Shown: one piece after another, positions 51,115 through 64,000 of the stretch | Layout of the letters: each line of letters opens with the position of its first letter | How positions within the stretch are numbered: position 1 is the stretch's first letter | Source of the DNA: Saccharothrix violaceirubra | GTDB lineage: Bacteria; Actinomycetota; Actinomycetes; Mycobacteriales; Pseudonocardiaceae | Length of the DNA: 64,000 nucleotides | Assembly (NCBI RefSeq): GCF_014203755.1 | Contig: NZ_JACHJS010000001.1 | Coordinates: forward strand, 4,030,001-4,094,000 | Reading direction: 5' to 3' | Position numbers and translations under genes: made by a program | Notes under the pieces: model-generated | The model's input: only the letters and a program-made list of their open reading frames with translations | The model's database searches: none | What the model was told of the DNA's origin: nothing

Positions 51115-51750
51115 ATGACCGACCACTTCGATCTTGACGCGTCCGTCCTGCCGCAGCGGCAGCAGCGGATCCTGGCGGTCATCCGCGACTGGGTCGTGGA
51201 GCACGGCTACGCGCCCAACGCGCGGCAGATCGCCGACGCGATCGGGCTGCGGTCGACGTCGTCGGTGTCCCGGCACCTGGCCGCGCTCGAGGAGCACGGG
51301 TTCCTGCGGCGGGGCACGGCGATGGCACGACCGATCGACGTGCGGGCGTTCCTGCCGACCGCACGGGCCTCCGACGCGGTGGCCGTGCCCGTGGTCGGCG
51401 ACATCGCGGCCGGTGCGCCGATCGTGGCCGAGGAGCACGTCGACGAGGTCCTGTCGCTGCCGCGCGGGCTGACGGGCCGGGGCGAGCTGTTCGGGTTGCG
51501 GGTGCGCGGCGACTCGATGGTGGACGCCGCCATCGACGACGGCGACCTGGTGGTCGTGCGGCGGCAGCCCGAGGCGCACTCCGGGCAGATCGTGGCCGCG
51601 ATGATCGACGACGAGGCGACCGTGAAGGTGTACCGGCGGCGCAACGGTCACGTGTACCTCGAACCGCGCAACGACGCCTACCCCGTGCTCGACGGTGACC
51701 GCGCGGTGGTGCTGGGGGTCGTCGTGTCGGTGCTGCGCAGCGTCCGATAG
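51115..51750 (+). CDS. lexA: LexA-like SOS repressor
   Basis: A 211-residue self-cleaving repressor. The N-terminal winged HTH (QRILAVIRDWVVEHGYAPNA, STSSVSRHLAALEEHGFLRR) matches LexA. The cleavage bond is Ala99-Gly100 (IAAGAPIV), and the catalytic dyad is Ser134 (RGDSMVD) and Lys171 (ATVKVYRR). All functional residues are present. It may be the main LexA or a paralogue: the neighbours here (CoiA-like nuclease upstream, secreted protein downstream) are not the usual lexA neighbourhood, so a second, specialised LexA is possible. ATG 51115. A hairpin follows the stop. Confidence 0.88.
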   Translation: MTDHFDLDASVLPQRQQRILAVIRDWVVEHGYAPNARQIADAIGLRSTSSVSRHLAALEEHGFLRRGTAMARPIDVRAFLPTARASDAVAVPVVGDIAAGAPIVAEEHVDEVLSLPRGLTGRGELFGLRVRGDSMVDAAIDDGDLVVVRRQPEAHSGQIVAAMIDDEATVKVYRRRNGHVYLEPRNDAYPVLDGDRAVVLGVVVSVLRSVR

Positions 51751-52521: not shown

Positions 52522-52740
52522 CTACTTCGCCGGGTTTCCTCCAGTCGTGGCTCGATGCCCGTCCCGCCCGCCGTGACGGCGGATCTCACGGGACACAACC
52601 GACGCATTACGACCGATCCGGACCGCGATGTCCCTGAACTCCAACGACTCCGCCGGGCCACGAGAGATCTCCTCCCGATCAGCCAACGTCAACATCCCGC
52701 GCACGACAGGGAATCCTTCCCCGCCGAACACCAAGCTCAC
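52522..52740 (-). pseudogene. IS30-family transposase fragment
   Basis: A 72-residue frame whose middle reads MLTLADREEISRGPAESLEF and RDIAVRIGRNASVVSREIRR, the N-terminal helix-turn-helix of IS30 transposases. The DDE catalytic part is absent, and sequence after GGRDGHRATTG is unrelated. A 5' fragment only; no terminal repeats found. Confidence 0.75.
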
Positions 52741-55815: not shown

Positions 55816-55992
55816 GTGGACTGGCGGGTTCCGGTGGTCTACGCGGCGGGGCTGGTCGTCGCGCTCCTGCTCCTGGGGCGACGGAAGAAGGTCCGGCCCG
55901 TCGCGGTGCGGGTGCTGTTGGCCGTCGTGTGGCCCGCCGTCGCGTTGTGGTGGCTGGTGTTCACGCTCAGCAAACCCCCTGCCGACGATTGA
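55816..55992 (+). CDS. Mini membrane protein, first gene of the CHAT operon
   Basis: A 58-residue protein with two hydrophobic helices (VVYAAGLVVALLLLG and VRVLLAVVWPAVALWWLVF) separated by the basic GRRKKVRPV. The topology is probably N-out/C-out or a hairpin. GTG 55816 has GGAGGTG upstream. It is followed 78 bases later by the OmpA-type lipoprotein gene and is likely co-transcribed with the five genes downstream. No family recognised. Confidence 0.65.
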   Translation: MDWRVPVVYAAGLVVALLLLGRRKKVRPVAVRVLLAVVWPAVALWWLVFTLSKPPADD

Positions 55993-56070
55993 GTGGCGGT
56001 CCGTCACTGGATGGTCGGGACGCGGTCGGCCCGGTCGCGCCCCCCGACCCGGAGTGATCAGGAGAACGCC

Positions 56071-57192
56071 GTGCGCGCTGTCACCGGACCGGTCGTCGCC
56101 GTCACGCTCGGCCTGAGCGCTGTCGCCTGCGGTGGAACCGAAGAACGACCGACGGGCGGTTCCGTCGCCTATGTACTCGGCGTGCACGCCAACGCACCGG
56201 CCGCCGCCTCGACCTCGGTGCTCGACGACGCCGTGTCCGGGCAGGCGAAGCTGACCGTCGTGCTCGCCGACGGCGAGCCGAAGATCCTGGTCGCCCGCGA
56301 TCTGACGGCGAAGGCGGCCAACGACGACGCCAAGCGGAAGGAGCGCGAAGACCGCAAGAAGGAGTTGCGCGGCACGCTCTCGCAGGCCAGGCCCGCGAAA
56401 CCGGAGGTGGACCTGCTCGCCGCGATCGACCTCGGCGCCCGGTCGCTGGACCGCGAACCCCGGCGGATGGTGGTCGAGTCCTCCGGCCTGTCCACGACCG
56501 GCAGCCTGTCGTTCCTCGCACCGGGCATGGTGCTCGCCGAGCCCGAGGAGATCGCCGACGACCTCCAGCGCAAGAAACTCCTCCCCGCGTTGGGCGGCGT
56601 GACCGTGCGCCTGCGCGGCATCGGCGACACCGAACCGCCGCAGCCCCGACCCGGCATCCACGAGCGGTCGAACCTGGTCGCGATCTGGCGCGAGGTGCTG
56701 ACCCGCGCGGGCGCCACCGTGGAGGTCGACGACCAGCCGCGCACGGGCAAGGCCCCGGACGACGCGCCCGCCGTGTCGCTCGTGCCGCTCACCCCCGTGA
56801 CCGTCGCGGCGCCGAAGGCGGAGGAGACCGTTCCGCTGCCCGCGTCCGCGTTCTTCGTGGCGGACAAGGCCGAACTGCTCGACCGCGCCGCGGCGGTGGA
56901 CGCGTTGCGCCCGTTCGCCGAGCACGTCAAGCAGGCGGGCGGGCGGATCGACCTCGTCGGCACGACCGCCCGCGTGGGTGACAAGGAGGGGCAGGTCGCC
57001 CTGTCCGGGCAACGCGCCGAGGCACTGCGCGTCGTCCTCGTCGACGACTTGGGCGTGCCGGCGGACCGCGTGACCTCGTCCGGTGTCGGCAGCTACCACG
57101 CCGACTACGTCGCCGATCACGACGCCGAGGGCAACCTGCTGCCCGACAAGGCCGCCCTCAACCGCACGGTCCGCATCACCATCCGCCGCTAG
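56071..57192 (+). CDS. OmpA-type peptidoglycan-binding lipoprotein
   Basis: A 373-residue exported lipoprotein: signal peptide with lipobox LSAVAC (Cys20), a soluble middle part (YVLGVHANAPAAASTSVLDD, AIDLGARSLDREPRRMVVES, SFLAPGMVL) and a C-terminal OmpA/MotB-like domain (~268-373). That domain has FFVADKAELLDRAAAVDALR, IDLVGTTARVGDKEG, LSGQRAEALRVVLVDDLGVP and LNRTVRITIRR. OmpA-like domains bind peptidoglycan, so it should tether a membrane complex to the wall. GTG 56071 with AGGAGA was preferred to an earlier frame start that lacks a signal peptide. It is second in a six-gene operon ending in a CHAT protease. Confidence 0.85.
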   Translation: MRAVTGPVVAVTLGLSAVACGGTEERPTGGSVAYVLGVHANAPAAASTSVLDDAVSGQAKLTVVLADGEPKILVARDLTAKAANDDAKRKEREDRKKELRGTLSQARPAKPEVDLLAAIDLGARSLDREPRRMVVESSGLSTTGSLSFLAPGMVLAEPEEIADDLQRKKLLPALGGVTVRLRGIGDTEPPQPRPGIHERSNLVAIWREVLTRAGATVEVDDQPRTGKAPDDAPAVSLVPLTPVTVAAPKAEETVPLPASAFFVADKAELLDRAAAVDALRPFAEHVKQAGGRIDLVGTTARVGDKEGQVALSGQRAEALRVVLVDDLGVPADRVTSSGVGSYHADYVADHDAEGNLLPDKAALNRTVRITIRR

Positions 57193-57203
57193 AGGAGACC
57201 GCC

Positions 57204-57632
57204 ATGCCCGCAGTGTCGGCCCGTCCCGGACCCGAACGGACCCGGCGGTGGGAACGCCGCACGTTGCGCATCACCGACTTCGGCCTGCCCGCGCCCGAGA
57301 TCGGCGGCGAGGCGTACCGCACGCGACTCGACGAACGCGTGCAGGCCGCGATCGCCGCCGGCGCCGTCGACCTGGGCACCGGCGACATGTTCGACGCGCT
57401 GATCGAGGCCGACCGGCGGACCGACCAGTGCCGGTTGACCGACGAGGCCACCCGCTGGTGGACGCGGGCCCGCCAGGTCCTGGTCCGCCACGAACGGCGG
57501 TACGCGCACGCCGAGCGGCTCCGGGTCGACCTGTCGAAGGCGCTGCACGCCGAGGTCGGGAAGCTGGAGGCGATCGACCGGGCGCTCGCCGCGCGGCGGG
57601 CCGAGGTCGAACGCGAGCGGGGGTCGAGGTGA
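57204..57632 (+). CDS. Small helical protein of the CHAT operon
   Basis: A 142-residue soluble protein without recognised family. The N-terminus is basic, the middle has LRITDFGLPAPEIGGEAYRT and GTGDMFDALIEADRRTDQCR, and the last ~60 residues are a coiled coil (RRYAHAERLRVDLSKALHAE, VGKLEAIDRALAARRAEVER). ATG 57204 lies 11 bases after the lipoprotein stop with GAGGAGA between, and its stop overlaps the next start (GTGA). It is probably a cytoplasmic adaptor to the membrane component. Confidence 0.75.
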   Translation: MPAVSARPGPERTRRWERRTLRITDFGLPAPEIGGEAYRTRLDERVQAAIAAGAVDLGTGDMFDALIEADRRTDQCRLTDEATRWWTRARQVLVRHERRYAHAERLRVDLSKALHAEVGKLEAIDRALAARRAEVERERGSR

Positions 57633-58423
57633 GGCACCGGACGTCGTTGCGCCACTTCGGGGACAGCCCCTACGCCCTGATCTGGTCGTGGCTGCTGCTG
57701 ATCGGCCTGTTGTTCGTGGACGTGCCGCTGCTCAAGTCCGCGTTGGGTGCCGCGGCGCCCACCGACCACTGGTGGCAGAGCTGGCTCATCGCCGCCGGGT
57801 ACGGCGTCGCGCTCGCCGCGACCACTTGGCCGGCGAGCGTGTTCACGTTGCGCCGCATCGAGCACGGCGAGTCGCGGCACCTCGCGGCGGCCGTCGTGTT
57901 CTGGGTGATCTGGGCCGCGGGCGTCATCGCGTCGTTCGTGTTCCGCCTGCTGCACCCGCAGGGGACGACGTCCGCCGACCAGGACTCGTTCCAGCTCGGC
58001 GAGCAGCCCGTCGAGACCGGGACCGGACCCGATCCCGGCAACGCGGTCGTGCTGACGTTGCTCGTCCTGATGACCGGCGCGGTCGCGTCCGGCATCGCCG
58101 CGCTGGGCGAGGACGACCTGCAACGCCAACGCCGCCGGGCCGCACGCCGGGTGCAGCGGTTGACGTGGCGGACGCGGTGGGCCAACCGGCGTGCCGACCG
58201 GCACGGCAAGGCCATGGAGGTGCAGAAGGACGAGATCGTGCGGATCGAGGGCCGACTGGCGATCGCCGTCGAGCAGACCGTCGGGCTTGCCCGCGGCCTC
58301 AAGCACCACGTCCGGCACACCATCGCCGTGGCGTTGGGCGATCCCCGGGCGACCACGGCCGTCACGCACGCCCCGGACGCCGCACCCGCGGACACCCGAC
58401 CGACCGAGGGGACCACGCCGTGA
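57629..58423 (+). CDS. Polytopic membrane protein of the CHAT operon
   Basis: A 264-residue membrane protein of unknown family. TM helices: ~15-35 (LIWSWLLLIGLLFVDVPLL), ~48-66 (WLIAAGYGVALAATTW), ~84-104 (LAAAVVFWVIWAAGVIASFV) and ~137-157 (AVVLTLLVLMTGAVASGIAA). After the last TM the tail is basic and coiled coil (RQRRRAARRVQRLTWRTRWA, KDEIVRIEGRLAIAVEQTVG), ending Thr/Pro-rich. GTG 57629 overlaps the upstream stop and the stop overlaps the next start, so it is part of one translational unit. Confidence 0.8.
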   Translation: MRHRTSLRHFGDSPYALIWSWLLLIGLLFVDVPLLKSALGAAAPTDHWWQSWLIAAGYGVALAATTWPASVFTLRRIEHGESRHLAAAVVFWVIWAAGVIASFVFRLLHPQGTTSADQDSFQLGEQPVETGTGPDPGNAVVLTLLVLMTGAVASGIAALGEDDLQRQRRRAARRVQRLTWRTRWANRRADRHGKAMEVQKDEIVRIEGRLAIAVEQTVGLARGLKHHVRHTIAVALGDPRATTAVTHAPDAAPADTRPTEGTTP

Positions 58424-59130
58424 GCCAGACCCGCTTCACGATGATCAAAGTCGGGTTCACCACGAAGGTCCGCGAGTGGTGGCACGGTCGGCGCGACGGC
58501 CGGCGCGGCATCCCCGCGGTGGTCGAAGGTCGACCGCTGCCGCACACCCCGCACGAGCGCACGCTGTCCGGCCGCCGCGACGAGGTGGTGGACCGCACGT
58601 TCGAGGACTTCACCCTCCTGGTCCGCCCGGTCGTCGCCGACGTCGAGCGGTGCTACCGGCGGCTCGCGTCCCTGGCGGAACTGCTGGCCGCACGGAAACA
58701 CAGACTGTCCGAACAGGACATTCCCCTGTCGGTGCCGGAACTGGACCGGCGCGGCCAGGGCGAGGACGTGCTGCCCGCGGAGACCGTGCGCACCCGCAAC
58801 CGCACCGACCAGCTCAAGCGCGTGGGGCCGATGCGCGCGGCCGTGGAGGAGACCCGGTCCCGTATCGCCGCGGAGCTGGAACTGTTGGCCCGCCTGGAAG
58901 CCGAGGTGACGGCGGCCCTGCGCGCGGCCCAGTCCAAGGCACTCCAGTACTGCGCCTACACCGACGCCTTACGCGGCCACTACTGGCGTTCGCTGGCCCG
59001 CGTCCACCCCGACCGGGAGGACATCGCCGGTCGCTGGCACCTGGTCCTCCCCCGGGCACCGTGGCTGACCGAGGGCGCCTACCGCGCCGCGCTCGGCCTC
59101 GGCGTGCCCGGCGGGCCCCAGGCCGGTTGA
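58420..59130 (+). CDS. Coiled-coil protein of the CHAT operon
   Basis: A 236-residue soluble protein. The N-terminal ~60 residues are basic (FTTKVREWWHGRRDGRRGIP), followed by FEDFTLLVRPVVADVERCYR and a long helical region (RNRTDQLKRVGPMRAAVEET, LELLARLEAEVTAALRAAQS) and a compact C-terminal domain (YCAYTDALRGHYWRSLARVH, GRWHLVLPRAPWLTEGAYRA). No catalytic motif recognised. GTG 58420 overlaps the membrane-protein stop; the CHAT gene starts 10 bases after its stop. Confidence 0.75.
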   Translation: MSQTRFTMIKVGFTTKVREWWHGRRDGRRGIPAVVEGRPLPHTPHERTLSGRRDEVVDRTFEDFTLLVRPVVADVERCYRRLASLAELLAARKHRLSEQDIPLSVPELDRRGQGEDVLPAETVRTRNRTDQLKRVGPMRAAVEETRSRIAAELELLARLEAEVTAALRAAQSKALQYCAYTDALRGHYWRSLARVHPDREDIAGRWHLVLPRAPWLTEGAYRAALGLGVPGGPQAG

Positions 59131-59140
59131 GAGGACACCC

Positions 59141-62100
59141 GTGGAACCGCACCTGGCGACGTCCTTGTTCGTGCGCCTCGACCGGGGCGAACCGGTCGAG
59201 GCGATCGGTCCCGTGCTCTACGAGGCGGTGTTGGCGGACCAGGAGCCCGACGACGCCACCGTCTTCCTGATCCGCCGCTGCCTCGACACCCTGCCGCCGG
59301 ACCACCCGTGGACCGGTTCCCTGCTGCACCTGCACTCGCTCGCTCTGGTGCGACAGGAGAAGTGGGCCGAGGCGGTCCGGCTCGCCGAGGCGTCGCTCGA
59401 CGCGCCTTTCCCCGTACCGGAGTTCCGCTACGGCGCGATCATCCACTTCTCCGAGGTCCACTGCACCCTGCACGAAGCAGGCGAGGAGGTCGACCTCGAC
59501 CGGGTGATCGGCACGCTCCGCGCCCTCCTCGACCAGGTCGACGAGCCGCACTGTCACGCGATCATCGCCACCCGGTGCGCGTACCTGCTCGCCGCCCGGG
59601 ACACGGGCGAGGACGCGGTCGACGCCGCCCGGATGCTCGACGCCGCGATCCCGGTCCTGCCCGCCGACATGCCGGGCCTGGACGGCACTTTCCGCCTGTC
59701 CGCCGCGATCGCCGCCGAACTCGCCGAACGGACCGGAGACCCGGCACTGCTCGACGCGGCAGTGGAAGCGTTGGACCGGGCCATCGCCTGCACCGGCCAG
59801 CGCGTGGCCGACGTCGAGCAGGACCATGCGACACTCGCCCTGACACTGATCCGGCGATGGCCGGATGAACGCCCAACCGATGTCCGGGATCGGATCGTCG
59901 ACAGCCTCGCCAAGGCCGTCGCGGCGGGATACGACGACCTGTGGCCCTGGTACGGCGGAGAGTTGTGCGCGCGCGGCGAAGCGACGGCCTCCCCGGAAGA
60001 CCTGCGCGTCGGTATCCGCTGGCTCGACCGGTATCTGGCCACCCCCGAGGACGACGGGCTGTCCAGGACCGCGATCCGCACCAACGCGGCGTTGGCGCAC
60101 CGCGCCTTGTGGCAGTCCACCGGTGACCCATCGCACGCGGCGGCGGCGCAGAACCACGCCACCGTTCTGCTGGGTCACGACATCTCGGACGGCGAACGCG
60201 TGGTCATGCACCGGATCCGGTTGGACCCAATGGTCCCGGTATCAGGGCGGGACACGGATCCACCGGTGCTTTCCTGGATCGCGCAGGCACGGGGGTTCGT
60301 CGAATCGACCGACCACCCCGATCTGGAGGCGGTCGCCGCACTGGCCGCCATTGTGACGTTCGTCGAACTGGCGGCGATCGCGTCCGGTGAACTGGCCATC
60401 CGATTGGCCGCCGGGGAGACCTTCGAGTCGATGTTCGGGTCCCTGCTCGACGTCGTGCGGCGCGCACCCGACGAGTACGCGGAGATGGTCACCCTGCTCT
60501 CGGACCTGTACCGCAACTACGATCTTGTGCTCCACGGAGACTCCGACACCGACCACTCCGCAACCTTGGAGGTCCTGAAGCAACACCGCGACGACCCAGA
60601 CTGGGGAGACGAACGTGCGGTGGTGGCGCTGATCTCCACCTTCTTGGGGGTCCGCATCGGCAATCTCGAACTCCTCGACGGCTCGCTGGCCGTGCACCCC
60701 GCCGCCATCGACCTGTTCCGCGCCCTCCACACCGATGCGGGGTTCGAGGAGATCTCGCAGCGGACGATCGAGGCACGGGCAGCGCTGGGTGAGGAGCAGG
60801 GCATCTTCACCGAGTTCCTCGACTACATGGTGGCGATGCTCGGCGAAGGTCCGCTCCCGGAAAATTCCTCTCCGCTCATGCGCCCGTTCCGCACCGCCGT
60901 CGACATTCTGGACGCCATCCGTCGCGACGACATCGACGCCATCCGTGCCGCCTGCCGCCGACTGGACGTCGAGGTCGCCACCACGCCTCGGTCCGCCGTC
61001 CGCCGGCACGACCTCGCGGCGAACGTTCGGGCCATCGCCTACTCCACCCTGGCCACCTTCGACACTGAGGACGCGCACGCAACCCTCACCGCCATAATGG
61101 AGGAAGGCACCCGGTGGGACAGCGCGGTCGCGGACCGCGACCCGGGCATCCTGCCTACCGCCGAGAAACTGGCCTGGCTGCTGCGGCAACGCGGTGGACC
61201 CGGCGACGGGGAACGGGCCCGGCGCGTCGGGTTCGAGATGCTGTTCCTGTCGTGGTGGCGGGTGCTGATGCAGACCAGCGACGACCACGCGCTCGACGTC
61301 GCCCGCACCGCGAGCGCCAACGCCGGGCAGTTCGTCTCCTGGTTCCTCGCCGACGGCGCGCTCGACGACCTCGTGCGCCTGCTCGACGCGAGCCGGGGTC
61401 TGGTGCTCGGCGCGGCGGCCCTGTCCCGCACCGCGTCCGGGAAGCTCACCGCGCTCGGCCACGCCGACCTGGCCGCCCGACTGGCCGCACCGGCCGCAGA
61501 TCCGATCGCGACCGTCGAACTGCGGCACCGGGTGATCCGCGTCCTGGCCGACGCCGATGCGGGCCTCGCCGATCCACCGACCACCGACGCGATCCGGGAA
61601 GGCTTGCGCCGCAACGACTCCGACGCCCTGTGCTACCTCGCGCCGCGCACGGAGCACCACGACGGCTTCCTGCTGCTGGTGCCCGCGGACGGCCCGGTCG
61701 AGGTGCGTGGCCTGGACCTCCCGGCGGCCGACGACATCGAGTCGGCACCGGGCCGCTACGGGATCGCGCTGGACGGGTGGAACCGGGCGGCCACGACGGA
61801 CGGTCCCGAGCACGGGCGGTGGCGCGACGCGTTGGCGGAACTCTGCGCGTGGGCCGGGGAGGCGGTCGGCCGGACCCTGCTCACCGTCCTCGGCGACCGG
61901 ACGCGGGTGGTGCTGGTGCCGATCGGCACGCTCGGGCTGGTGCCCTGGCACGCCGCGTGCCACGACGGCCGACACCTGCTGGAGGACCTGACGCTCACGA
62001 CGGTGCCCTCGGCCCGGGTCTTCCTGGACCTGGTCGACCGGCCCGCCGTGACCGGCACCCCGGTGCTGGTCGGCAACCCCGACCGCCGACTGCACGCGGG

Positions 62101-62707
62101 CGCCCACGAGATCGCCCTGCTGAACCGGCTGCACTACGCGGACGCGGTCTGCCTGGGCCTGCGACCCACGCACCGCAGACCGACGCCGACCTTCCCCGAC
62201 GGGTCGGGCACACCGGAGCAGGTGCTCGCCCGGCTCGGGGAGCCGGTGTCCGTGTTGCACCTCGCGTGCCACGCCCGTGCCGACATGCGCCACCCGCTCG
62301 CGTCCTCGATCACGCTCTCGAACGGCGAACTGTCGGCGCGGACGCTGTTGGGTCTCGAACCCACGGGCACGCTCGCGCTCGGGGTGGTCGCGCTGGCCGC
62401 GTGCGAGACCGGGTCGACGTGGGTCGACCACGACGAGGCGTTGAGCCTGGCCACGACGTTCCTCACGATCGGCGCGCGGTCGGTCGTCGGGTCGCTGTGG
62501 AAGGTGCCGGCGCGCGGGACCACCCGGTTGATGGCGTTGTTCCACCACTTCCTGCGCACGGAACCGCCCGCGACCGCGCTGCGCCGGGCCCAGCTCTGCC
62601 TGCTCGACCCGGACCGCGAACCACCGCCGGCCGCGCTCGGCCTCCCGGCCGGCGAGCACGACCGGGACCCGGCGAACTGGGCCGGTTTCGTCGCGTCGGG
62701 ACGGTGA
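59141..62707 (+). CDS. CHAT-domain protease with long helical repeat region
   Basis: A 1188-residue caspase-family protease. The first ~850 residues are helical and TPR-like (LHLHSLALVRQEKWAEAVRL, GIRWLDRYLATPEDDGLSRT, LLDASRGLVLGAAALSRTAS). The C-terminal CHAT domain (~860-1188) shows PRTEHHDGFLLLVPADG, VVLVPIGTLGLVPWHAACHD, the catalytic His1044 in VLHLACHARADMRHPLASSI and Cys1088 in ALAACETGSTWVDHDEALSL, then TTFLTIGARSVVGSLWKVPA. The dyad is complete. Proteolysis of a partner protein on activation is known for other CHAT systems; here the operon supplies lipoprotein, membrane and coiled-coil partners. GTG 59141 with GAGAGGA upstream. A bidirectional hairpin follows. Confidence 0.92.
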   Translation: MEPHLATSLFVRLDRGEPVEAIGPVLYEAVLADQEPDDATVFLIRRCLDTLPPDHPWTGSLLHLHSLALVRQEKWAEAVRLAEASLDAPFPVPEFRYGAIIHFSEVHCTLHEAGEEVDLDRVIGTLRALLDQVDEPHCHAIIATRCAYLLAARDTGEDAVDAARMLDAAIPVLPADMPGLDGTFRLSAAIAAELAERTGDPALLDAAVEALDRAIACTGQRVADVEQDHATLALTLIRRWPDERPTDVRDRIVDSLAKAVAAGYDDLWPWYGGELCARGEATASPEDLRVGIRWLDRYLATPEDDGLSRTAIRTNAALAHRALWQSTGDPSHAAAAQNHATVLLGHDISDGERVVMHRIRLDPMVPVSGRDTDPPVLSWIAQARGFVESTDHPDLEAVAALAAIVTFVELAAIASGELAIRLAAGETFESMFGSLLDVVRRAPDEYAEMVTLLSDLYRNYDLVLHGDSDTDHSATLEVLKQHRDDPDWGDERAVVALISTFLGVRIGNLELLDGSLAVHPAAIDLFRALHTDAGFEEISQRTIEARAALGEEQGIFTEFLDYMVAMLGEGPLPENSSPLMRPFRTAVDILDAIRRDDIDAIRAACRRLDVEVATTPRSAVRRHDLAANVRAIAYSTLATFDTEDAHATLTAIMEEGTRWDSAVADRDPGILPTAEKLAWLLRQRGGPGDGERARRVGFEMLFLSWWRVLMQTSDDHALDVARTASANAGQFVSWFLADGALDDLVRLLDASRGLVLGAAALSRTASGKLTALGHADLAARLAAPAADPIATVELRHRVIRVLADADAGLADPPTTDAIREGLRRNDSDALCYLAPRTEHHDGFLLLVPADGPVEVRGLDLPAADDIESAPGRYGIALDGWNRAATTDGPEHGRWRDALAELCAWAGEAVGRTLLTVLGDRTRVVLVPIGTLGLVPWHAACHDGRHLLEDLTLTTVPSARVFLDLVDRPAVTGTPVLVGNPDRRLHAGAHEIALLNRLHYADAVCLGLRPTHRRPTPTFPDGSGTPEQVLARLGEPVSVLHLACHARADMRHPLASSITLSNGELSARTLLGLEPTGTLALGVVALAACETGSTWVDHDEALSLATTFLTIGARSVVGSLWKVPARGTTRLMALFHHFLRTEPPATALRRAQLCLLDPDREPPPAALGLPAGEHDRDPANWAGFVASGR

Positions 62708-63072: not shown

Positions 63073-63861
63073 ATGCCGACCGCTTGGGACGGGTACGCGC
63101 GGGTCGACTACCTGCCCGCGCCCGGACGGCTCCAGGTCACGCTGCACACCGTGGAGCCGACCGTCCACCGCCGGCTGCGCGACGGGTTGGCCTGCGCGTT
63201 CGCCGTGGACGGCCGGGCCGGGCCGCCGACGTACGTGGAGATCGACGTCGGAGACGGCCTGACCTACGACACGCGCGTGCTGCTGGCCGGTCCGCTGCTG
63301 GACATCGCGGTCGACCTGGTGGGCGACGGTCCCGCGTCGCGCGAGACCCGGCTGCCGCCGGCCCAGGTCGCGGCGCTGGCCCGCCGGTGGGCGCCGTACC
63401 GGGACTTCGTGCTCGCGCCGGCACCCGCGCCGGTCCGGTCGGGTTCGTGGGCGGACGGGCTGTGGGCGGTGTTCGGCGGGCTGGGCCTGGTCCGCGCGCT
63501 GCGGGCGTTCGTGCCGCCGCCCGAACCCGCGCACCGCGGCGACGAGGTCGCGGCCGAGGAGCACTGGGAGTGGCTCGAACTGCCCGCCGACCTGGCCGCG
63601 GCGGCGGGGGTGGACCGCCGCGTCGGCTGGGCGCCCTACCGGGACGTCGCGCTCGACGGCACGGCCGAGACCGGCTTCATGATCATGGCGGTCCCGGCAC
63701 CGGTGGCGCGGTTGCTGGTCGGGCTCGACGACGGGTCGGGCCGGTGGGTGGCGTTCGCGCCGGACCCGGAGACGCCCGGCCAGGTCTTCGCCGACCTGCC
63801 GTGCGGACCGGACGTCGCGGAGCCCGCGTTGCGGTTCCGCACCGAGGAGGAGGGCCGATGA
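63073..63861 (+). CDS. Conserved hypothetical protein
   Basis: A 262-residue soluble protein with no recognised family. The N-terminal ~110 residues are beta-rich (YARVDYLPAPGRLQVTLHTV, PPTYVEIDVGDGLTYDTRVL) and include LPPAQVAALARRWAPYRDFV. A hydrophobic Trp/Gly segment near 135-160 (WADGLWAVFGGLGLVRALRA) could touch the membrane. The C-terminal part is WEWLELPADLAAAAGVDRRV and GFMIMAVPAPVARLLVGLDD. ATG 63073 with AAGGGAGG upstream. The stop overlaps the next start as ATGA, so it begins a new operon that runs off the window. Confidence 0.75.
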   Translation: MPTAWDGYARVDYLPAPGRLQVTLHTVEPTVHRRLRDGLACAFAVDGRAGPPTYVEIDVGDGLTYDTRVLLAGPLLDIAVDLVGDGPASRETRLPPAQVAALARRWAPYRDFVLAPAPAPVRSGSWADGLWAVFGGLGLVRALRAFVPPPEPAHRGDEVAAEEHWEWLELPADLAAAAGVDRRVGWAPYRDVALDGTAETGFMIMAVPAPVARLLVGLDDGSGRWVAFAPDPETPGQVFADLPCGPDVAEPALRFRTEEEGR

Positions 63862-64000
63862 CCGGGTTCGACCCGACCCCGCTGCGCCGCGTGTGCCAAG
63901 GGGTCGTCGCCGGGCTGCCGGGCGAGGTCCGGGAGCGGTTCGCGCAGGCTTACGAGTCCCCGGACGACCTCGTCGACGCGATGGTGGCCGCGGGCGACCG
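63858..64000 (+). CDS. Hypothetical protein, partial at window end
   Basis: ATG 63858 overlaps the previous stop. The first 47 residues are visible: MTGFDPTPLRRVCQGVVAGL, then PGEVRERFAQAYESPDDLVD and a truncated remainder. Helical, no motif recognisable. The rest lies outside the window. Confidence 0.6.
   Translation, partial: MTGFDPTPLRRVCQGVVAGLPGEVRERFAQAYESPDDLVDAMVAAGD

Follow-up and report, generated by a model that had tools for sequence, protein, structure and literature searches.

What is a predicted caspase-like CHAT protease doing directly behind a set of genes for lipoprotein and membrane proteins? The question is raised by a gene cluster of Saccharothrix violaceirubra, situated in a window of 64,000 nucleotides (contig NZ_JACHJS010000001.1, positions 4,030,001 to 4,094,000; the genome is called G000 below). 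The cluster opens with six genes, g1 to g6 (Table 1), in which an earlier note had seen a six-gene operon, forming a chain from the cell wall to a cytoplasmic protease. The coordinates of the open reading frames (ORFs) confirm the six genes as well as the 4-base overlaps (GTGA) at g3/g4 and g4/g5 and the spacing of 10 bases between g5 and the CHAT gene, g6. With moderate confidence, the cluster can be described as a modular, envelope-coupled CHAT effector system that has parts in common with the ancillary cassettes of type III CRISPR loci. It would consist of a lipoprotein cassette (module A, g2-g5) and of the CHAT protein with g9 and g10, and also g7 and g8 (module B).

The CHAT domain of g6 matches Pfam with an E-value of 7.7e-47 (160.6 bits, compared with a curated cut-off of 24), and the long N-terminal region gives only a weak TPR match (TPR_12, 0.019). 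The closest solved relatives are TPR-CHAT/Csx29 structures (best E-value 1.4e-07). His1044 and Cys1088, the dyad picked out in the earlier note, align with residues 585 and 627 of the TPR-CHAT chain of Craspase (7x8a_D), these positions being counted off the alignment. The 1188-residue protein carries the His/Cys catalytic dyad residues, and peptidase activity is predicted from them. Its sole NCBIfam match is to the Csx29 model (2.3e-19), at 69.7 bits and under the cut-off of 300. A second CHAT protein, encoded beyond g10, has kept both dyad residues and shares about 39% identity with g6 across 815 amino acids (aa). The genome as a whole has eight CHAT matches, six of them at further places.

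The listed ORF of g2 opens at position 55993. The likely start is a GTG codon at 56071, with AGGAG upstream. The N-terminus is hydrophobic and carries the sequence AVAC, a lipobox motif that we take to mark the site of lipid attachment. Residues 261-347 match Pfam OmpA (7.5e-08), and the C-terminal domain was found to have an OmpA-like fold. However, the Asp of the GhTD motif, presumably the residue of this domain that contacts diaminopimelate (DAP) in peptidoglycan, is replaced by Ala in 20 of 20 aligned members of the lipoprotein family; the Arg of LSxxRA is retained. Because the canonical Asp is missing, the wall anchoring that had been ascribed to g2 is at most putative, and we call g2 a predicted lipoprotein. 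A vWA-like N-terminal part is suggested by a single Foldseek row and by the order of strands and helices, the VIA rows covering the OmpA part only. Of the other members of the cassette, g4 has three hydropathy peaks above 1.4, and g3 shares 63% identity with its positional counterpart in genome G055.

The breadth of all the families discussed here rests on genome samples. Each neighbourhood covers 5 to 22 kilobases (kb), or 48 kb for Pseudonocardia sp. 73-21, and some end at contig ends (L142, L143, L152 and L153 among them). Profiles rather than single sequences had to be used as queries, because g4 alone matched only its own genome among 394 genomes of the class. The g4 profile matches all 26 strong lipoprotein loci and the g5 profile 25 of them. 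Relatives of genes 5, 4 and 2 are all present in 25 of the 26, and this G5-G4-lipoprotein set is a conserved cassette. Scanning contigs for the lipoprotein pair A5 yielded 212 pattern matches, but not one was confirmed. A g5-type domain is fused to FHA-ABC (transporter) domains in G093 and G019 (L037:9883-12618 and L069:7597-9414).

In a sample of 200 genomes of the family, CHAT lies within the same 15-20-kb stretch as the cassette in eight of the 26 strong loci. A three-sequence CHAT profile missed G019, which was added by a 14-row profile; the same set of loci is obtained without row L006, and for eight members of that set CHAT is confirmed by Pfam. The other 18 stretches hold module A without CHAT, which is part of what the earlier note had expected if its reading were wrong. 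Nine of these 18, and thus of the 26, are from one genus (g42), so that they do not represent 18 independent cases.

The g9 and g10 genes are firmer partners of CHAT than the lipoprotein cassette is. Relatives of g9 occur in 11 of 200 family genomes (E <= 1e-20) and in one of 396 genomes of the phylum (E <= 1e-15), which is G000 itself, and 28 g9 loci were obtained by scanning named genomes. CHAT is found within the stretch in 15 of the 17 closer loci of this set (L129-L145). When L131, L135, L136, L137 and L140 are taken as G131, G112, G125, G123 and G136 and each genome is counted once, the closer clade comprises 23 rows, and CHAT is present in all of them except G126, L143 (a 7-kb contig) and L144, that is, in 20. 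The envelope partner is swapped between these loci. The lipoprotein cassette occurs in 12 of the 23 (G000, G055, G057, G123, G131, G183, L130, L132, L134, L138, L139 and L145), and a large lipoprotein-like protein with a vWA protein in five (G112, G125, G136 and L133 by similarity, G112 also by Pfam VWA, and G086 by eye). No envelope partner is in view in six. The g7 gene adjoins g8 in G055, G060, G112 and others, and g9 and CHAT overlap directly in L155. The best matches of a g10 profile to PDB sequences have E-values of 0.14 or worse.

Cassette and CHAT stand side by side in G000, G055 and G057, arranged differently in each of the three. The order in G055 is g7, g8, g9 (on the minus strand), g10-like ORFs and CHAT, followed by g5-g4-g3-lipoprotein convergent with CHAT. 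The cassette of G057 is likewise convergent with CHAT, the lipoprotein being nearest, and then come g10, g9 and g8. About 14 kb separate the two in L139, and G060 has g7, g8 and CHAT with no cassette within its 19 kb. The association of the envelope genes with CHAT, as first proposed, is borne out by this adjacency and by the 12 closer g9 loci, but not by most of the lipoprotein loci. The earlier note had regarded g1-g6 as a whole as a sensor of envelope damage or phage entry that triggers proteolysis by CHAT. Lipoprotein and membrane genes do immediately precede a CHAT gene that has both dyad residues, and they are linked to CHAT in G055 and G057 too. We nevertheless consider this explanation unlikely: g1 is not conserved, g7-g10 are linked as well, the cassette is so often found without CHAT, and the OmpA Asp is absent.

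Proteolysis is not always the output: eight of the 20 loci that have both CHAT and g9 have retained the cassette but lost the dyad, and the remaining 12 have both residues. His is replaced by Arg and Cys is absent in G123, G131, L132 and L134, and pairwise BLAST of the CHAT protein of the window with that of G131 shows the same replacements. In G183, L130, L138 and L145 the His stretch cannot be aligned, the Pfam CHAT match being split into two pieces that flank a missing middle; L138 has a Cys one column off. The dyad-less loci form a single g9 clade (support 100/100), and each has a protein-kinase gene beside the lipoprotein, so that the loss may have been a single event. Genes for ClpB-like AAA+ and NrdG-like radical-SAM proteins come next in G123, G131 and G183. 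The CHAT protein without its dyad may act as a scaffold in these loci. A locus of G158 (L088) also combines the cassette with kinase, ClpB-like and radical-SAM genes, and CHAT was not found within its stretch.

The loss of the dyad would also be expected if g2-g5 were a housekeeping complex for the envelope or for morphogenesis, next to the CHAT gene by chance, with CHAT a mere scaffold in many relatives. The nine genomes of genus g42 agree with this, since they hold the cassette at a similar chromosomal place (judged by eye), and neither CHAT nor a cas gene was found in the stretch. Such a complex is improbable, however, given that cassette and CHAT meet again in different gene orders and that the distribution is patchy: ten congeners of G000 in the sample have no relative of g5 (E <= 1e-3) and no close relative of CHAT (E <= 1e-60).

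Gene families of the window cluster are also found in type III CRISPR loci, an unexpected link that was traced through sequence similarity. Among the 11 more distant g9 relatives (L146-L156), seven have cas genes within the stretch (L146-L150, L154 and L156). PADLOC identifies Cas10 in L149 (1.3e-77), L150 (8.9e-92) and L147 (6e-87), a III-D-type Cas7 in L154, and a weaker Cas8b match (1e-10) in L148, which also has an array of 45 repeats; the calls in L146 and L156 are based on similarity to the other distant g9 cas loci. The homologues used for detecting cas genes were drawn partly from the same loci, with PADLOC or Pfam backing for chosen proteins (PADLOC for five g9 loci). Of the distant loci without cas genes, L155 has CHAT, and nothing was seen in L151, L152 and L153, the last two being cut. 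In G126, a CARF gene, Cmr2 and Cmr3 come after g9, on the opposite strand. The g9 tree places the relatives linked to CRISPR mostly in a clade of 10 rows (100/100) and those linked to CHAT in a second, of 23 rows (97/97), of which G126 is the first branch with the midpoint root as drawn.

The cassette, too, has been found in such surroundings. Pseudonocardia sp. 73-21 has a run of genes for CARF-HEPN, a protein p357, G5, G4 and the lipoprotein inside a type III locus with Cas10, Cas7, Cas6, CARF-TM, RT-Cas1 and two arrays. CHAT and g7-g10 are present in the same 48 kb, with about 29 kb between Cas10 and CHAT. The same run occurs in G004 (L077), beside homologues of Cas6, CARF-TM and RT-Cas1, a RAMP-like ORF and an array; no Cas10 was seen there within 20 kb. 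The p357 protein resembles g10 (30% identity over 157 aa, 5e-07), the G004 copy giving an hhalign value of 0.0032 with a probability of 10. CARF-HEPN and p357 accompany type III-type genes in G104, with no cassette in the 12 kb examined. A g10 homologue in G108 (9e-31 to the g10 of G112, 2e-16 to that of the window) overlaps a CARF-HEPN-like gene, and an RT/Cas1-like gene lies in the stretch.

Since type III loci can hold g9, genes like g10 and the lipoprotein cassette next to CARF proteins, the cluster might be an orphaned ancillary cassette, signalled in trans by a cyclic nucleotide from a Cas10 encoded elsewhere or acquired. This is very unlikely. No Cas10-Cmr2_palm2 match above the cut-off was found in 12 of 14 genomes, including G000, in which there was no match, and G131, which has matches below the cut-off; nor was Cas10 found in six of eight further carrier genomes. 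No CARF or SAVED family is matched by g2-g6 (Pfam and PADLOC) or by g9, or by g7, g8 and g10 in scans limited to Pfam and NCBIfam.

The modular, envelope-coupled system is not free of contrary evidence either. Besides the lost dyads, the cassettes without CHAT and the lack of a Cas10 match in G000, homologue searches found cas genes in only one of 39 lipoprotein stretches (L077) and one of the 17 closer named g9 loci (L139). No repeat array was detected in the window, in L009 (16 kb) or in L010 (20 kb) by a script that required three exact 23-mers 50-95 bases apart. PADLOC gives no match for g1-g5 and only a weak BovA match (0.0011) for g6. Both modules have parts that also occur in type III loci, so the window cluster is best regarded as a relative of type III ancillary cassettes that is free of CRISPR. 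This suggests a mix-and-match defence or stress system that has not been described previously.

For this modular system we infer a topology, a complex, a mode of activation, a substrate and a role in defence. Module A would be a platform across the membrane, with the lipoprotein g2 and its vWA-like and OmpA-like domains outside, g4 in the membrane, and g5 and g3 in the cytosol; the wall-to-cytoplasm chain of the earlier note is plausible as a topology. A signal relayed by the platform, or by g9/g10, might reach the large N-terminal region of CHAT and so release the His/Cys protease, which would then cleave a partner. According to PMC10028731, the Csx29 protease of type III-E Craspase cleaves Csx30, which inhibits the sigma factor CASP-sigma. 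Because Csx29 cuts its neighbour, one of the products of the cluster itself (g8, g9 or g10) would by analogy be the likeliest first substrate. As in Csx29, CHAT forms the C-terminal domain of a long protein and the dyad is aligned. Unlike Craspase, the window stretch has no CRISPR array and G000 no Cas10 match (gRAMP/Cas7-11, Csx30 and Csx31 were not searched for), and a membrane-lipoprotein cassette occupies the place expected for the RNA-guided part. A more specific version, which we think rather improbable, is a Craspase without CRISPR: the platform or g9 would replace the RNA-guided trigger, and CHAT would cut an inhibitor of the g9 or g8 type, releasing a sigma-like g10 that starts a defence or stress programme. 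In other loci, partners of the g9/g10 type and the same platform would have been plugged into cyclic-nucleotide CARF effectors of type III CRISPR loci, and likewise into a relay of kinase, ClpB-like and radical-SAM proteins in which a dead CHAT serves as scaffold.

Several known systems resemble the cluster in part. In Zorya, with its ZorA/ZorB pair, we take ZorB to be of the OmpA type; a membrane protein and an OmpA-type domain are common to both, but the protein that carries the OmpA part is here a predicted lipoprotein and has a vWA-like domain as well. Zorya was dropped as a candidate, as g1-g5 had no match to the ZorA/ZorB models of PADLOC, nor did g6 match Zorya. Four CHAT loci (L129, L035, L036 and L163) have an AAA+ gene, presumably FtsH-like, and three of the four also encode a 579-aa protein. 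They recall the FtsH ternary systems of PMC7159879, which describes vWA-MoxR ternary conflict systems with OmpA-type and caspase-like parts in the iSTAND type and radical SAM in the FtsH type. Some relatives of the window cluster have AAA+ and radical-SAM genes as well. The vWA-like domain, however, is here within a predicted lipoprotein, and Pfam finds no AAA family in g1-g10 or in the second CHAT protein; iSTAND and VMAP were not searched by name. PMC11229360 describes two further systems. In the SAVED-CHAT effector of type III and CBASS, a CHAT protease is the output of a defence locus, as proposed here, but g6 has no SAVED match and there is a membrane cassette instead. CalpL-CalpT-CalpS is a protease relay of a type III locus that frees a sigma factor; its protease is of the Lon type and gated by SAVED, and our g10, compared by Foldseek, VIA-align and hhalign, is only putatively sigma-like. 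No description of the present composition was found in the accessible portions of the literature, including PMC7159879, PMC8195603, PMC10907252, PMC11229360, PMC10028731 and PMC12669027, which does not prove its absence from print.

The six-gene operon is the wrong unit. Membership of g1, which has two hydropathy peaks, is unsupported, because no relative was found at E <= 0.1 among the retrieved loci (best 0.64), and it is linked through its position only. The g7 and g8 genes, which overlap by ATGA, follow the CHAT gene on the strand of g1-g6, and g9, g10 and the second CHAT gene lie further on. Pfam has no family for g1, g3 and g5 and no match for g7, g8 and g10, and only rows below the cut-off for g4 and g9 (0.018 for g9). 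NCBIfam gives no match for g3, g4, g5, g7, g8, g9 and g10.

Table 1. Features of the cluster. Coordinates above 64000 extend the window numbering over adjoining sequence (stretches L009 and L010).
Feature	Position	Strand	Description
g1	55816..55992	+	58-aa small membrane protein, two hydrophobic stretches
g2 (LIPO)	56071..57192	+	373-aa predicted lipoprotein; N-terminal vWA-like (lead), C-terminal OmpA-like
g2 predicted lipid-attachment Cys20 codon	56128..56130	+	from translation, lipobox AVAC
g3	57204..57632	+	142-aa protein
g4	57629..58423	+	264-aa polytopic membrane protein, helical-looking C-terminal tail
g5	58420..59130	+	236-aa coiled-coil-like protein, N-terminal G.RDG..P motif
g6	59141..62707	+	1188-aa CHAT protein, CHAT domain residues 911-1187
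g6 predicted catalytic His1044 codon	62270..62272	+	from alignment
g6 predicted catalytic Cys1088 codon	62402..62404	+	from alignment
g7	63073..63861	+	262-aa, no Pfam/NCBIfam family
g8	63858..65492 (in window 63858..64000)	+	544-aa, no Pfam/NCBIfam family
g9	65711-67840	minus	beyond window
g10	67873-68904	plus	beyond window
Second CHAT gene (CHAT2)	68926-72375 (L010:6926-10375)	minus	1149 aa, Pfam CHAT 2.5e-45

Upstream of the cluster, the window has a paralogue of a LexA-like repressor (51115-51750, plus strand) and a fragment of an IS30-like transposase (52522-52740, minus strand), the former named by eye from its translation and the latter by eye. A gene similar to this fragment, likewise named by eye, lies beside g10 at the end of G136 (record L140). 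Not far from the second CHAT gene is a gene for a 1266-aa WD40-repeat protein with an N-terminal region that looks NTPase-like by eye (L010 13068-16868, or 75068-78868 in window numbering, minus strand). It looks like a putative conflict-system protein.

If the modular system is real, type III ancillary parts and CHAT proteases would belong to a wider envelope-coupled toolkit in actinomycetes, and platform, protease, kinase/AAA+/radical-SAM and CRISPR modules would be exchanged among actinomycete systems. The g3, g5 and g7-g10 proteins, and g4 but for its sub-cut-off rows, fall outside the Pfam and NCBIfam models and would provide handles on undescribed families, and the cluster offers a testable question as to the substrate of CHAT.

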